The notes beneath the pieces are model-generated. The model had not been told where the DNA came from. It saw nothing but the letters and a program-made list of their open reading frames with translations, and did not search any database. A stretch of 36,025 nt of DNA. Origin: a virus. The first letter of the stretch is position 1. Each line of letters starts with the position of its first letter. The translations under genes and the position numbers were made by a program. Positions 30,820 to 35,725 of the stretch are shown here, in pieces. The DNA is taken from positions 1 through 36,025 of IMG/VR virus record IMGVR_UViG_3300049812_001538. One strand, 5' to 3'.

Positions 30820-30821
30820 AT
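29655..30821 (-). CDS. Overlapping second-frame ORF with [YW]xTP repeats
   Basis: 388 codons without a stop, in another frame of the methyltransferase gene. It starts at ATG 30821, which forms the TAATG junction with the exonuclease stop; the methyltransferase GTG is two bases further on. Four [YW]-x-T-P units occur at 180 (YPTPSV), 228 (WATPNTMD), 280 (WGTPKEQD) and 312 (YPTPTSRDWKG). The end reads LNPDWVEQLMGLPIGWTDF at 364-382. I recall these motifs, and KDWVTKQRLEYSQRVKSAS at about 150-168, from phage methyltransferase-associated proteins. It may be a separate protein, a frameshift partner or an alternative recognition region. Confidence 0.5.
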   Translation of the reverse strand: MWILPKEIQSLTSVSVLDTKESEKDLEEFCQMSEKSLMWRSKPSQLRTWLTRWKRNNWMQHLSIQTLRPSHTENFVEKWTYYLEDSLANHSLKLELEKLQRTQDTSSLTSQKESESANLELFSSKMSKESSQQKPQMENQFSDMSSEHWKDWVTKQRLEYSQRVKSASHIREKESLSLAYPTPSVAGCVEGGVAKNVEMNEKGFSATRENGTKYGAKLRDAVIHQASWATPNTMDVLPPRSYEATQKQAMTARKGRNNPANLREQVDPTCVKAYKDAKNWGTPKEQDSRAAMTDRGKHNLGEQVHGMHNQNYPTPTSRDWKGAYSKESQENKPRNLLPDAVGENTQRDLMKNNTNGKPLVSLKLNPDWVEQLMGLPIGWTDFDFSEME

Positions 30822-31588
30822 TATTTCTTTCTATTTTTTTTAGGTTTAGGTGTCATTCTCTCCGTCCAATATATTTTGGCGGCGAGCTTTGCACATTCAA
30901 AGTAGTGATTGAACTCATCGTCCGACCATTCGTAGTGGTAGTGTTCAGCTGTGTTGGTATCGATACATACTGATCGTACCTTTGGAAAGTAATCGAGCTT
31001 CAGTTTTTTAGCGAGCATTACGCTCTCGATTGCTAACTGCTTGCAGTCCTTTGGATAGAACTTACCCTTGCCGTCATTGCAACTTCGGCATTTGTAATCG
31101 GCGAGAAAGACTTTCTCATCTTTATCTAGCCCAATAAAATCAATGCTACCAGCTATCTTGAACCTACTATCTGAGATAATGTACTCGCAGTCAACGACTT
31201 GCACACCCTCTTCATTTACCCAATCTATAAAAGGTTTCGCCCAATCATCGTAAGCACTGGCTTCGCCCTCTCCGTCCATTAACCAATCCTCGATTCGTTT
31301 ATGAACGGCAGTCCCGAACTCAGAGCTTGAGATCATCTCTCCGGTAAATGGATGCTCTCGAAATCCGTAGCACCATTCCTTGAGTACAGAATAATGTTGG
31401 GTAGGATGTTCTCTTGCTAGGTCAACTAACTTTCGGGGCATATAAATACTATCGAGGAAATCGTCTTTAACTATTCCGAGTACAGTTGTAACAGATGGGT
31501 ACGCTCTTCCTTTCTTGAGGGCTTGGTGCGGCGTAGTGACATCTTCTAGAAACTGTGGAGTTTTTGAGCTTGAGTAGAAATGTGACAT
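30821..31588 (-). CDS. RecB/exonuclease VIII-like PD-(D/E)XK exonuclease
   Basis: 255 residues. SSEFGTAVHKRIEDWL (88-103), IAGSIDFIG with Asp150, FLADYKCRS with Asp164 and Lys166, and KQLAIESVML with Gln184 make up the RecB-type nuclease core. It is expected to resect duplex ends so that the ERF protein can anneal the exposed strands. The ATG at 31588 directly follows a T-run; its only ribosome binding site is GAGG inside the 3' arm of the upstream hairpin, so translation may be controlled by that structure. Confidence 0.82.
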   Translation of the reverse strand: MSHFYSSSKTPQFLEDVTTPHQALKKGRAYPSVTTVLGIVKDDFLDSIYMPRKLVDLAREHPTQHYSVLKEWCYGFREHPFTGEMISSSEFGTAVHKRIEDWLMDGEGEASAYDDWAKPFIDWVNEEGVQVVDCEYIISDSRFKIAGSIDFIGLDKDEKVFLADYKCRSCNDGKGKFYPKDCKQLAIESVMLAKKLKLDYFPKVRSVCIDTNTAEHYHYEWSDDEFNHYFECAKLAAKIYWTERMTPKPKKNRKK

Positions 31589-31912: not shown

Positions 31913-31943
31913 AATCTCATTATTAAGATTATGAAATCATAAT
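31910..31943. promoter_or_regulatory. Overlapping inverted repeats at promoter/start, candidate operator
   Basis: CATAATCT (31910-31917) and AGATTATG (31926-31933) form an 8-bp inverted repeat that includes the start codon of the 86-residue gene. ATTATGA (31928-31934) and TCATAAT (31937-31943) form a second repeat overlapping the -10. The two share bases, so both could be one repressor's binding sites. Confidence 0.55.
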
Positions 31944-31967
31944 AACAGACACCGAACTCGATGTCAA
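31939..31967 (-). promoter_or_regulatory. Leftward sigma-70 promoter
   Basis: On the - strand TTGACA (31967-31962), 17-base spacer, TATTAT (31944-31939). One mismatch from consensus in the -10 and none in the -35. It lies just after a terminator and would start transcription about 20 bases before the 86-residue gene, driving the exonuclease-to-nuclease operon. Confidence 0.85.
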
Positions 31968-31968
31968 T

Positions 31969-31996
31969 AAAAAAATAAAACCCCTATTTCTAGGGG
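31969..31996 (-). terminator. Leftward terminator before the promoter
   Basis: On the - strand CCCCTA-GAAA-TAGGGG (31996-31981) followed by TTTTATTTTTTT (31980-31969). The stem is perfect. It ends transcripts from the small early genes to its right and isolates them from the promoter at 31939-31967. Confidence 0.88.
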
Positions 31997-32010
31997 CTTG
32001 AGAGAGATAG

Positions 32011-32602: not shown

Positions 32603-32776
32603 TTAAAAATTTACTTCTATGTTTACATTATGGTTGTTGATTCCGTACTTGAAATCATTATCTGCTACCATTTGGTAGGCTTCTTCACGAGTTCTAGCTT
32701 TGATGTAGTAGCTCTCGGTTACAACGAACTCAGTTAAACTGGGTTCGATTTCGGCGGTTGTGGTATTTTTATTCAT
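32603..32776 (-). CDS. Small hypothetical protein (57 aa)
   Basis: ATG at 32776, 58 codons including the stop. The segment EFVVTESYYIKARTREEAYQ followed by MVADNDFKYGINNHNVNIEV has the beta-alpha-beta look of short phage proteins that resemble half of a dsRNA- or ligand-binding fold. The KARTREEAYQM pattern is common in small uncharacterised phage proteins. The stop is two bases from the next ATG. Confidence 0.62.
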   Translation of the reverse strand: MNKNTTTAEIEPSLTEFVVTESYYIKARTREEAYQMVADNDFKYGINNHNVNIEVNF

Positions 32777-32816
32777 TTGATTATTAATGGTTTAGGTAAG
32801 TGCCAATACTTTGTGC

Positions 32817-32844
32817 TTGACACGTATTTTATATTGAGTATAAT
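32817..32844 (+). promoter_or_regulatory. Consensus promoter on + strand inside the leftward region
   Basis: TTGACA at 32817-32822, 16-base spacer, TATAAT at 32839-32844. Both hexamers match the sigma-70 consensus exactly. It points rightward, against all neighbouring genes, with no protein gene of plausible length after it, so it most likely drives the small RNA at 32851-33000. Confidence 0.85.
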
Positions 32845-32850
32845 TAGGTA

Positions 32851-33000
32851 AGAGCGATACCGGTAAGACATCGAATTTACCAAAGGTAGCGTAGCGAAAG
32901 TCGCAACGAAAAGCCACAACATCTCGATAAGATGCGTGCGTTGTATGTGATGTGGATCAACTGCGTTTCGAATGAGTTGCATATGTGGCTTGTGGTTTTT
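32851..33000 (+). ncRNA. Putative structured small RNA
   Basis: The region downstream of the consensus promoter contains several hairpins: GGTAA/TTACC (32862-32881), GCGA-AAG-TCGC (32894-32904), CATCT-CGATA-AGATG (32920-32934) and CAACT/AGTTG (32958-32979). The last two sit inside a closing stem AAGCCACA/TGTGGCTT (32911-32918 with 32984-32991), which is followed by GTGG and five T at 32996-33000. The transcript would be about 150 nt. It is not a tRNA. The end fits intrinsic termination after a multi-branched structure. Length and function are inferred; a role in modulating host or early phage functions is possible. Confidence 0.6.
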
Positions 33001-33017
33001 AAGGATAGGTGTGTCTA

Positions 33018-33122
33018 CTAGATTAGACTTATCAAAAGCATTACTAAGAAGATTGCGAAACCAGAAGTCAATCCAATTAGCAATCCCTCTAAGAGAGCGA
33101 GATTTTCTTTTGTTTTCTTCAT
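33018..33122 (-). CDS. Micro membrane protein (34 aa)
   Basis: The ATG at 33122 overlaps the stop of the 109-residue gene (ATGA), which strongly supports it. The 34-residue product has a charged start (MKKTKENLALLEG) and one long membrane span (LLIGLTSGFAIFLVMLLISL). Tiny single-span proteins in early regions often modify the host membrane or exclude other phages, but no specific role can be given. Its 3' end lies 18 bases from the oppositely directed small RNA. Confidence 0.65.
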   Translation of the reverse strand: MKKTKENLALLEGLLIGLTSGFAIFLVMLLISLI

Positions 33123-33448
33123 AGTAATATACTGCTATCTATTGAACTTTCGGCGGTTCTAATAATCTTCTGTTTAGTTTCGTAATCTAATCCATCTGAG
33201 CCGCTATAGAAATTCATATGTTCTGGGATCCATTGTTCCATTTCTTGATCGCAATCGAACTCACGATACCAACATAGAATATCGACATCTTCGACTTCTA
33301 TTTCACTATAATACTGGGTAGCAACTCCATCTCCGTAAGGATGGGTTTCGGCGTTTTCTATTTCACTATAAGTAATCTCGCATTCAGCAAAGATACTGTA
33401 GTGATCATTTTGTAGTACTTCGACTGTAGTAATGTATGTTTCGCTCAT
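33119..33448 (-). CDS. Acidic hypothetical protein (109 aa)
   Basis: 109 residues, strongly acidic, beta-rich, with a repeated YSEIE element (two copies around residues 27 and 47; the DNA repeat is TCTATTTCACTATAA). It has CWYREFDCDQEMEQWIPEHM in the middle. No known domain. The strong negative charge is compatible with a DNA-mimic or inhibitor role, which remains a guess. It is followed by the coupled micro membrane gene. Confidence 0.65.
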   Translation of the reverse strand: MSETYITTVEVLQNDHYSIFAECEITYSEIENAETHPYGDGVATQYYSEIEVEDVDILCWYREFDCDQEMEQWIPEHMNFYSGSDGLDYETKQKIIRTAESSIDSSILL

Positions 33449-33456
33449 ATTATTTA

Positions 33457-33600
33457 TTATTTAATTGTTTCAAGTTGAACATCATCATAGCCTTTAGATT
33501 TCCATTCTCTTAGGGCTGATTCTGCATCTAATAAGTTTGTGTAGTGATCATCAATACCACCTACCCAAACAATGTATTTTGTTTCGTTATTGGCTTTCAT
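33457..33600 (-). CDS. Small hypothetical protein (47 aa)
   Basis: ATG at 33600 with GGAAAG eight bases upstream; 48 codons including the stop. The sequence KYIVWVGGIDDHYTNLLDAE followed by SALREWKSKGYDDVQLE has a beta-helix-beta plan common in very small phage early proteins that resemble half-domains. The stop lies eight bases from the next ATG. Family unknown. Confidence 0.68.
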   Translation of the reverse strand: MKANNETKYIVWVGGIDDHYTNLLDAESALREWKSKGYDDVQLETIK

Positions 33601-33601
33601 T

Positions 33602-33844
33602 TTATTCTTTCCAGTTAGGATTATTACTTACATAGATTCTACCCTCTGAGATAGTTTGATTCTCATAATGGCGTGCCATTGCGTCTATAACTTCTTCAGT
33701 AAGATTTTGGCGGTCTAGGTCTCGATACCATTCTTCGAGTCCTTGAACACGTCTTACTGCGTCAATATAATTAGGTCTAGTCTCGTAGCTCTTAGCGAAC
33801 TCGGTTAGGTCCTTTCGGAACTTTTCTTTCTGTGATTGTTTCAT
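33602..33844 (-). CDS. Small helical hypothetical protein (80 aa)
   Basis: 80 residues, charged and helical (EKFRKDLTEFAKSYETRPNY, then VRRVQGLEEWYRDLDRQNLT). The start context is TATAAATATATG, shared by several genes in this region, without a Shine-Dalgarno sequence. The end is one base before the following ATG. No recognised family. Confidence 0.65.
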   Translation of the reverse strand: MKQSQKEKFRKDLTEFAKSYETRPNYIDAVRRVQGLEEWYRDLDRQNLTEEVIDAMARHYENQTISEGRIYVSNNPNWKE

Positions 33845-33848
33845 ATAT

Positions 33849-34181
33849 TTATATTAATTTGTTTAAGCAGCTAGCCATATCAGCTAACTCTATCGTTAAA
33901 ATAGCATTCTTTGCGGTTTCTATGCAAGGGAAATGTTTTTCGCCCCAGTCTAACTGAACATCGCCTAAGACTTTTGTAATTGTTACAATCGCTTTTGATG
34001 TTTCAAATGATCCGGTTTTTTCATTCCAATACGTACCATCTTTGCATTCTGATGCTGGTTCGTACGCAACGAAACGTATATAATCCGTATAAGCATTTAT
34101 ATAAATTTCGCTTATATATACATCGCTGAATTCAGCAATGAATAAATCTTTTAATATTTCTTTATCGGTTGTGATGTTCAT
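33849..34181 (-). CDS. Hypothetical protein (110 aa)
   Basis: 110 residues. The N-terminal part (EILKDLFIAEFSDVYISEIY) is helical, followed by a beta-rich segment with YDAF-like aromatic content (YIRFVAYEPASECKDGTYWN). The C-terminal CIETAKNAILTIELADMASC is helical and has two Cys. It starts at the TATAAATATATG context. Function unknown. Confidence 0.65.
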   Translation of the reverse strand: MNITTDKEILKDLFIAEFSDVYISEIYINAYTDYIRFVAYEPASECKDGTYWNEKTGSFETSKAIVTITKVLGDVQLDWGEKHFPCIETAKNAILTIELADMASCLNKLI

Positions 34182-34202
34182 ATATTTATAGGTTTTATTA
34201 AA

Positions 34203-34478
34203 TTAATTTCGTCTAAAAAATGAATCACCGCTATCCATAGGAAACTCAAAATTATTATTAGCTCTTTCATTTATTATCTCAATCGCTTTTGTGGTTTCCA
34301 CGAATTTAACACGCGGCAATAAATCTACATCGGATTTAATTAATTCTAAACAATCTTGCATTGCTTCGCTTTCGCTTTCATAAAAAGCAATACCAGCTGA
34401 TTTGTTATCAGTACCAAAAAATTCAAAATACATTTTGTTGTTTGGTAGGTTTAATTTATTTTCTATTACATTTTTCAT
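34203..34478 (-). CDS. Hypothetical protein (91 aa)
   Basis: 91 residues with a segment KMYFEFFGTDNKSAGIAFYE followed by SESEAMQDCLELIKSDVDLL, an alpha/beta plan seen in many short phage proteins. The codon use is very A/T-rich. The upstream leader is purine-rich (AAGAAAGAAAAC) and might serve for initiation. Function unknown. Confidence 0.62.
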   Translation of the reverse strand: MKNVIENKLNLPNNKMYFEFFGTDNKSAGIAFYESESEAMQDCLELIKSDVDLLPRVKFVETTKAIEIINERANNNFEFPMDSGDSFFRRN

Positions 34479-34504
34479 TTTGTTTTCTTTCTTTTATTGG
34501 TTTG

Positions 34505-34630
34505 TTATTTGATTATTAAAATTGCTATTAATGCAATGATTGCTCCAATGCTGGATAATGAGACAAAAACGGCGTTTAAAAGCGTTTGCTCGCCGCCGCG
34601 TACTAATTGGTTGAGATTTGTTTTATTCAT
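34505..34630 (-). CDS. Small membrane protein (41 aa)
   Basis: ATG at 34630 in the recurring ATAAATATATG context; 42 codons including the stop. A polar start with RGGEQTLLNA is followed by one membrane span made of Ile, Ala and Leu (SIGAIIALIAILII). It is the second tiny single-span membrane protein of this region, besides the one at 33018-33122. Function unknown. Confidence 0.62.
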   Translation of the reverse strand: MNKTNLNQLVRGGEQTLLNAVFVSLSSIGAIIALIAILIIK

Positions 34631-34661
34631 ATATTTATTGGTTATTGATAAAAATTTAATT

Positions 34662-34694
34662 GAAGCTTTATCTATTGCAAGGAAATAAAGCTTC
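34662..34694. repeat. 10-bp inverted repeat GAAGCTTTAT/ATAAAGCTTC
   Basis: A perfect inverted repeat with a 13-base loop, located between the 134-residue gene and the 41-residue gene. It could act as a weak leftward terminator (a T-rich stretch follows on the - strand after nine bases) or an RNA-processing hairpin. AAGCTT is locally frequent (about seven copies within 370 bases). Confidence 0.55.
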
Positions 34695-34703
34695 TATAAA
34701 TCT

Positions 34704-35108
34704 TTATGCAATTTGCATTAATTTTTGTTGCTCGTATTTATAAAGCTTTTCTGTTAAAGCTTCTCTAAATAAAGCTTCTATAATAAAATAAGCTATCCAG
34801 CCAATCTCTTCATCGTGATTTGTTGGATCGCAAACATTATCGCAAGCATCATAATAATAGGAATCGTGATTGTTAAAGCTAAATTTAAAAGCGTAAACAA
34901 TTTCCCATTGATCTTGCGTATAATTAATGCAATCGCTTGCGTAATTAGAACAAGCTTCATCAATAGAATCTTGTAAATATTCCCATATATTGGAATCTTC
35001 ATTGTGCTTAGTAGCTTCATAAGCTTCTTTAATAGAAGCGATATTATTTAAAACAAATGAATCAACTTCTTCATTTGCTTGATCGATTATTTCATATACT
35101 GTTTTCAT
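34704..35108 (-). CDS. Acidic Tyr-rich hypothetical protein (134 aa)
   Basis: 134 residues, acidic, with many Tyr, Asn and Asp residues and five Cys. Segments are WEYLQDSIDEACSNYASDCI, NNHDSYYYDACDNVCDPTNH and EALFREALTEKLYKYEQQK. Four Cys in the middle (DEAC, SDC, DAC, NVC) could bind metal or form a compact core. The start context is A/T-rich. Function unknown. Confidence 0.65.
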   Translation of the reverse strand: MKTVYEIIDQANEEVDSFVLNNIASIKEAYEATKHNEDSNIWEYLQDSIDEACSNYASDCINYTQDQWEIVYAFKFSFNNHDSYYYDACDNVCDPTNHDEEIGWIAYFIIEALFREALTEKLYKYEQQKLMQIA

Positions 35109-35151
35109 AATTTATTTTTTATTGGTTATTAGGTTAATAAAAATTAAATGC

Positions 35152-35175
35152 GGACATCGCCGCGAAGCGATATCC
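35152..35175. repeat. Imperfect 9-bp hairpin in intergenic gap
   Basis: GGACATCGC and GCGATATCC pair in eight of nine positions around a six-base CGCGAA loop, between the 179-residue and 134-residue genes. On the - strand the stem is followed by a T-rich region (TTTAATTTTTATT), so a weak leftward terminator or attenuator is possible. Confidence 0.5.
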
Positions 35176-35185
35176 TTATTAATCT

Positions 35186-35725
35186 TTAGTTATCAAATCC
35201 GCCTAATTTATTCATTCTTTCATATAAACTTGCGATTAACTGAATGTAATCAATTGGATCTTCAAATCCATCGGTATCCTCTTCAGCTACTTTTATCCAA
35301 TGTCTTCTATCTAAAGCGTCACTAGATGGCTCATCTAAAGCTGATGAAAGCAATTTAATAAATTTATCCTTTTCTAATAACTGAAATAATAAATGGACCA
35401 CAATATGATAACAAGTAAATGGCAAATCTTTTTCCTCGTTATCAATTCCTAAATGATCCCATATTTCATTTTCATTTAGATTATTTTCATTAATGAAATG
35501 AGATGCTAACAAGCAATAATCTTGAAAAGTAAAATCAGTTAAAACTGAATCAGCAAGATTATGAATTGCAACTGATAATTTTTCGTGATCTGTCGCGGCG
35601 TCAATGCATTTTGTTTCAATTAGCTGATCAATAGATTCTTCTAATGAATCTATGAATTTTGTCATAATGTTTTCTGATATATCAGAATAGCATTTTTGTG
35701 TGAATTGTGATATTGTGTTTTTCAT
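35186..35725 (-). CDS. Acidic hypothetical protein, first leftward gene (179 aa)
   Basis: 179 residues, mostly helical and acidic. Segments are TKFIDSLEESIDQLIETKCI, NNLNENEIWDHLGIDNEEKD, LPFTCYHIVVHLLFQLLEKD and a C-terminal DPIDYIQLIASLYERMNKLG. No known domain. It is the first gene read from the promoter at 35759-35787 and therefore probably expressed immediately after infection. The start context is TATAAATATATG without a Shine-Dalgarno sequence. Confidence 0.7.
   Translation of the reverse strand: MKNTISQFTQKCYSDISENIMTKFIDSLEESIDQLIETKCIDAATDHEKLSVAIHNLADSVLTDFTFQDYCLLASHFINENNLNENEIWDHLGIDNEEKDLPFTCYHIVVHLLFQLLEKDKFIKLLSSALDEPSSDALDRRHWIKVAEEDTDGFEDPIDYIQLIASLYERMNKLGGFDN

Follow-up and report, generated by a model that had tools for sequence, protein, structure and literature searches.

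The window, i.e., the whole analysed stretch of 36,025 nucleotides of viral DNA, carries a perfect sigma-70 type promoter, and behind it a noncoding stretch of about 180 nt which is conserved together with the promoter in relatives. This stretch ends in a module with a covarying hairpin, which has a constant orientation, occurs in single copy and is nearly absent from bacteria. We give about even chances to the reading that a phage-specific noncoding transcription unit is present here, its putative product being a trans-acting RNA whose body varies while its 3' handle is conserved. It probably represents a widespread, undescribed RNA of marine phages.

The promoter and its surroundings

A 77-base direct repeat is found at the ends of the 36 kb window, which is therefore probably a whole circular-assembled genome. 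Late genes run on the + strand from position 151, and the early genes are read leftward, starting at about 35.9 kb. DnaB and ERF proteins are encoded in the window, and no phage RNA polymerase was found in it. Among named phages the nearest is C75C1 (67% for the major capsid, 44% for the exonuclease), which has a copy of the 57-aa gene named below without the unit behind it. The features of the locus are as follows.

30821-31588, - strand: exonuclease-type gene (exo), the syntenic anchor; its C75C1 homologue is annotated as exonuclease
32603-32776, - strand: 57-aa ORF, left neighbour of the unit in the window's clade
32817-32844, + strand: sigma-70 type promoter TTGACA-N16-TATAAT, the single 12/12 site, conserved in syntenic loci
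32851-32997, + strand: noncoding RNA body, with a start inferred about 7 nt behind the -10 hexamer; conserved within the clade only
32911-32918 with 32984-32991, + strand: 8-bp stem AAGCCACA/TGTGGCTT of the original prediction, enclosing a 65-nt multiloop
32998-33012, + strand: single-stranded part of the 3' module, TTTAAGGATAGGTGT, found once each in 13 of 18 records when up to 3 mismatches are allowed
33013-33028, + strand: hairpin of the 3' module, GTCTA-CTAGAT-TAGAC, with compensatory changes; its covariation score is reached by 0 of 500 shuffles
33119-33448, - strand: 109-aa ORF, right neighbour of the unit

The whole window was scanned for sigma-70 pairs, and the site with TTGACA at 32817-32822, a 16-base spacer and TATAAT at 32839-32844 on the + strand was the only one to match in 12 of 12 bases, while the runner-up matched in 11. 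No perfect pair occurred in 40 Markov-simulated windows. The original prediction had named this site as the best sigma-70 promoter of the window, which was borne out. It was also right about the orientation, with the promoter facing a gap among leftward genes, but not about the size of the gap, given as 240 bases: the flanking leftward ORFs (57 aa, starting at 32776, and 109 aa, ending at 33119) are separated by about 342 bases, and a 69-aa ORF without conservation overlaps this interval. A promoter directed into a gap in this manner exceeds chance. Searches in PHROGs and Pfam gave no informative match for 10 neighbouring small proteins. Two further observations were made on the - strand of this region. 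At 31939-31999 a terminator-like hairpin (31999-31978) comes immediately before a TTGACA-N17-TATTAT site whose spacer contains another hairpin (31965-31948). Among the genes at 32603-35725, many of the small early ones have no Shine-Dalgarno sequence ahead of the start codon, where AT-rich runs such as ATAAATATATG are found.

Exonuclease alignment gave 168 relatives, 80 of which were kept, and the region upstream of exo was inspected in 19. Where exo was 69-82% identical (ten loci), the promoter on the same strand was perfect in nine, while the tenth, L077, had one mismatch; where it was 51-56% identical, no comparable promoter was seen near exo in any of the nine loci inspected. Perfect hexamers with a spacer of 16 or 17 bases were present in 21 of 22 syntenic loci, comprising the window's clade, the exo-anchored relatives and two contigs from a pattern search for the L074-type RNA described below. 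On sequence evidence the unit has a putative dedicated promoter, as a trans-acting sRNA should; it is also encoded opposite to the neighbouring genes, as an antisense RNA of its own operon should be.

Conservation and folding of the putative RNA body

Ten distinct versions of the window's clade, the window included, were obtained by searching with the 125-aa and 57-aa neighbour proteins and with a pattern of the body. The nine others are 82-93% identical to the window in the RNA region, which is kept about as well as the neighbouring coding DNA, and both promoter hexamers are invariant in all ten, again with a spacer of 16 or 17. The predicted RNA unit behind the promoter was supported in so far as a noncoding stretch of about 180 nt is conserved together with the promoter in relatives; its extent had to be corrected, as the unit reaches about 33028, past the predicted end at 33000, and its most widely conserved part is found there. 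Between the clades of the window's lineage the body is not alignable, while the module persists between most of them. In L066-L071 the last approximately 30 nt are of the window's kind, TTTAAGGATAnnTGTrTyT followed by a hairpin. A combined alignment of four clades, made with plain MAFFT, gave no common fold. The loci L074-L077, belonging to the same lineage and having the same promoter, carry no module behind it (for L074 the whole record was searched) and have a different RNA there; a pattern for this RNA matched five contigs. A second, unrelated RNA class was in this way observed behind the same kind of promoter in L074, L075, L076, L077, L130 and L134. It contains AAAAAGGCTACGRCAGGTTTGTAATAGTGTGCAGTTAAA and apparent nested stems (ATAGTGT..ACACTAT), clearest in L075-L077 and diverged in L074, and gave no Rfam match in the loci scanned.

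Several hairpins had been predicted downstream of the promoter. By energy this did not hold, since the + strand of the window folds no better than its shuffles (z -0.52; 55 of 200 shuffles fold as well); the - strand gave z -1.30, and within the body only a 24-nt hairpin at 32888-32911 attains z -2.1. In the window's lineage the mean z was -0.30 on the + and -1.39 on the - strand (n=7, from 14 lineage sequences), and for the T7-like RNAs treated below, among the matches listed, it was -1.23 for the RNA strand and -0.74 for the opposite one (n=52, thinned from 93 by k-mer similarity). RNAalifold of the ten clade versions gave -28.4 kcal/mol for the + and -18.8 kcal/mol for the - strand. No + strand pair was changed on both sides in these ten, because the bodies within the clade are too alike for such testing. 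The 8-bp stem and the T-run just behind it both exist as predicted, but the stem encloses the 65-nt multiloop, and the few changes it has in the clade, none of them compensatory, speak neither for nor against it. A terminator at the T-run was not supported by the terminator scan, which found no terminator-like site on the + strand anywhere in 32845-33119. Compensatory changes among relatives, expected by the original prediction, support one helix only in the window's unit, i.e., the 3' hairpin at 33013-33028, and none in the + strand body of the clade.

The 3' module and its distribution

The module comprises 31 nt (32998-33028), TTTAAGGATAGGTGT and the hairpin. The 3' arm of the hairpin was outside the search pattern, and the hairpin was thus open to testing. 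Among 97 distinct modules with all loop lengths, 77% reached the hairpin score, compared with 20% of the shuffles. Twenty-four modules with the same arm positions (an alignment out of 73 distinct modules, with arms at columns 26-31/36-41, plus L019, which is unpaired there) showed two-sided changes in 23 cells and one-sided changes in none, and the percentage paired in this alignment holds for that arm-position class. Their covariation score was 0.405, against 0.161 for shuffles (0 of 500 reached it) and at most 0.084 when the arms were slid. The 13 modules of the window's lineage which were found without the pattern had nine two-sided cells and a score of 0.316, against 0.138 for shuffles (again 0 of 500). 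No G-U pair occurs in the hairpin, which could for this reason equally be an inverted repeat in DNA. The pattern fixes the first 10 bases and TGT, and invariance at these positions in the at least 111 loci found with it is by construction; unbiased support for the fixed bases comes only from the 13 sequences of the lineage found by neighbours or by exo. Three motifs offer possible leads, namely AAGGAU as a candidate CsrA-like site, TAAGG-AU-AGGTG as a candidate bulged anti-Shine-Dalgarno match and GGTGTGT as a candidate boxC-like stretch.

A pattern of the first 19 bases of the module matched at least 119 stretches in IMG/VR, at least 111 of these in further loci (L135-L245), a few of which are further views of contigs already met, e.g., L187 and L193. 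Among the 111 loci listed, 95 have a T7-like terminase (TerL) gene downstream on the opposite strand, within 400 nt in 93 cases, and five have the window-lineage exonuclease on the opposite strand. The 11 with neither gene are two of the window's lineage, three ending close by and six probable chance matches (L157, L159, L164, L167, L194 and L224 among the matches listed). Neither terminase nor exo was found on the module's own strand in any of the 111. The T7-like counts omit the six chance matches and seven window-lineage loci, and at least 200 bases upstream were required, which removed some others. T7-like RNA polymerase and terminase were both found in the contigs tested, which places the carriers among the autographiviruses; for the L150 terminase the closest match is Ayaqvirus S45C18 (64.5%). 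Eighteen records were searched over their whole length, and the module was found exactly once in 13 and was absent from five, which remained unchanged at 3 mismatches, while a reversed control pattern had no match in the 18.

Outside these contigs the module is close to absent. In 84,980 bacterial and archaeal genomes the 20-nt module had one match, in Flavobacterium hydatis, about what we estimate for chance, and a 23-nt pattern of the body had none. The unit and two T7-like versions gave no blastn match to 50,697 named phage records. A 36-nt module query found 19 of 20 nt in MH319720 (E 5), which has no promoter upstream and was taken as chance. In S45-C18, HTVC011P and CRP-171, three named relatives of the T7-like carriers, the surroundings of the terminase contain no module; HTVC011P and CRP-171 have only sites with 5 mismatches in 18, without a promoter ahead.

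Most T7-like carriers, among the matches listed, have a -35/-10 pair ahead of the module. Of the T7-like promoter regions listed, 62 are distinct, and in 39 of these TTTACA or TTGACA, CCTTCGG, and TATAAT or a near match follow one another, the hexamers mostly 23 bases apart. Most of the other regions listed have TTTACA or TTGACA with TATAAT at a distance of about 15-17, which would fit a sigma-70 promoter loosely; the CCTTCGG type with its spacing of about 23 bases does not look like a canonical one. Examples with CCTTCGG at this near-constant distance are L145, L150 and L155. Some 46-75 nt ahead of the module the T7-like RNAs have a second hairpin, with the near-constant loop TCATAC..CGTTCTTTC and variants of it. 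The loop occurs in 66 of 93 T7-like RNAs among the matches listed (21 distinct), and the stem bases vary at every pair; the stem was found by extending Watson-Crick pairs, and non-pairing cells are uncounted. In L163 (8294-8713), compared with L136 and L142, the loop motif TACTTCGTTCTTC is reverse complemented, as if the hairpin had been inverted. A tRNA gene lies near the unit in the T7-like contig L140 (3166-3238).

Readings of the unit and known systems

We infer that the unit is transcribed and that + is its functional strand. The host sigma-70 RNA polymerase would start near 32851 upon entry of the DNA and produce an RNA of at least about 180 nt, ending at or just past the 3' module (32998-33028), and this RNA would act in trans. 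The module (UUUAAGGAUAGGUGU and the hairpin) may be a handle for some factor that the hosts of the two phage lineages have in common, candidates being a host RNA-binding protein, a ribonuclease or a part of the ribosome, whereas the fast-changing body could be an effector or a decoy. A constant promoter and handle with a changing body fit a trans-acting RNA better than transcriptional collision or a late-gene leader. More tentatively, these RNAs could form a widespread, undescribed class which marine phages make from host promoters when infection begins, with a near-invariant handle and interchangeable, fast-diverging bodies; in relatives such as L074-L077 a quite different RNA would have taken over entirely behind the same promoter. 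Such RNAs could serve to decoy or inhibit a host machine for defence or RNA processing. An arms race would be expected to produce such turnover of the body while promoter and handle stay constant, and phages with unrelated replication genes would have the RNA in common through their encounters with the same hosts. The known RNAs of virulent phages are few, and those common to several phage lineages fewer still; here a 31-nt module is found in at least about a hundred marine viral contigs, in each case opposed to the genes and once per genome where checked. Module, promoter and hairpin provide a concrete probe with which to search metatranscriptomes and to carry out pull-downs in cultured marine hosts; the module could point to a host factor which many ocean phages target on entry. 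Counting against a trans-acting RNA are the fold energies of the window's lineage, which favour the - strand, as well as the finding that no + strand pair is changed on both sides within the clade, the fact that the module hairpin has no G-U pairs, the lack of any terminator in the scan, the 23-nt spacing of the CCTTCGG regions, and the absence of the module from L074-L077.

Two other readings are unlikely in our judgement. Firstly, transcription from the promoter could act in cis as antisense, against the early operon or, in T7-like phages, against the 3' end of the terminase gene, lowering expression by polymerase collision or mRNA pairing so that the RNA sequence would hardly matter. The orientation is indeed opposite to the anchor gene in 100 of the 100 scorable loci among the 111 listed, no terminator follows the module, and early antisense RNAs against structural genes are described for Pseudomonas phage PAK_P3 (PMC4933390). 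However, collision requires neither an intergenic RNA of conserved sequence nor a near-invariant module with compensatory changes, and the partner differs by lineage, small early genes in one and terminase in the other. Secondly, and of similarly low probability, the unit could be a site in DNA, i.e., a transcript-primed (R-loop) replication start or a genome-end or packaging signal, with the inverted repeat read as DNA; this is the most serious structural rival. The strict Watson-Crick pairing of the module hairpin agrees with it, as do the strand energies, which do not favour + in the window's lineage, and the place of the T7-like unit, which has the terminase gene on one side and the genes towards the RNA polymerase on the other, a region in which T7-like genomes end, as T7 does. 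Yet the element is common to phages whose replication genes differ (a DnaB/ERF type lacking a phage RNA polymerase as opposed to a T7-like type having one), it is situated about 4 kb from terminase in the window, and a conserved promoter with a long variable body would be left unexplained.

It is very unlikely that the unit is the leader of a long rightward transcript reading through into late genes, in the manner of the lambda pR'/6S RNA or HK022 put. On the circular window the + strand does meet terminase and structural genes after about 3.2 kb, but the neighbouring genes of the T7-like carriers are on the opposite strand, leaving no late genes for the transcript to serve, which makes a leader unlikely for the family as a whole. 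A short protein gene is still less probable: open frames of 18-41 aa exist on the + strand in most members, but they are cut short by stops in L015 and L006, have an altered end in L014 and differ between clades, and those on the - strand vary from 0 to 35 aa, so that the frames, truncated or differing between members on both strands, speak against a protein gene. Least credible of all, the conserved 20-mer read leftward as a promoter of the phage's own RNA polymerase, which the T7-like carriers tested do encode, is contradicted by its single copy in each of 13 of 18 records even at 3 mismatches and by its presence in the window and the L071 record (possibly a fragment) without such a polymerase, and counts as refuted in the window's lineage, provided that the record is complete.

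In comparison with known systems, the unit has no counterpart among the Rfam families. Rfam 15 covariance models gave no match in the window at the gathering cut-off and none to the unit alone at E up to 10, and in 28 relative loci the only match was the tRNA of L140, outside the unit, in agreement with the prediction of an undescribed RNA. T7 has a leftward promoter, A0, used by the host polymerase near the early end and pointing against the genes. The promoter of the T7-like carriers is likewise a putative host-polymerase promoter near the early end and against the genes; the likeness is one of position. We know of no T7 RNA of this kind and no such 3' module in T7, our literature search on A0 yielded nothing, and the open-licence papers on pelagiphage and marine phage RNAs gave no description of such an RNA or module sequence. 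The suggested mimicry of promoters in the manner of 6S RNA was not supported. The unit is similar to 6S RNA in size range, in being noncoding and in having the host polymerase in play, but the 6S covariance model had no match in the window or the unit at either threshold, the unit is without any Rfam match, and no single long bulged hairpin with covariation was found. Pairing with transcripts, also suggested, was not supported either: the best duplex in a trans scan of the window had -49.5 kcal/mol, against -45.5 to -52.2 in four shuffled RNAs, and no target exceeded these controls. The unit sits in a gap, and complementarity arising from any read-through would be trivial. The antisense RNAs c4, sas and STnc6030, which have roles in immunity or exclusion (PMC12197685), are phage-encoded and antisense like the present unit, but they pair with a named phage mRNA, whereas the duplexes of the unit are no better than shuffles. 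The early antisense and small RNAs of PAK_P3, seen by RNA-seq and with all but one of the antisense RNAs located inside genes (PMC4933390), are the closest documented case met with, coming likewise from a virulent phage, without protein and in antisense orientation; an early time is suggested for the present unit as well. It differs from them in lying between genes, in being kept in two phage lineages and in being predicted from sequence.
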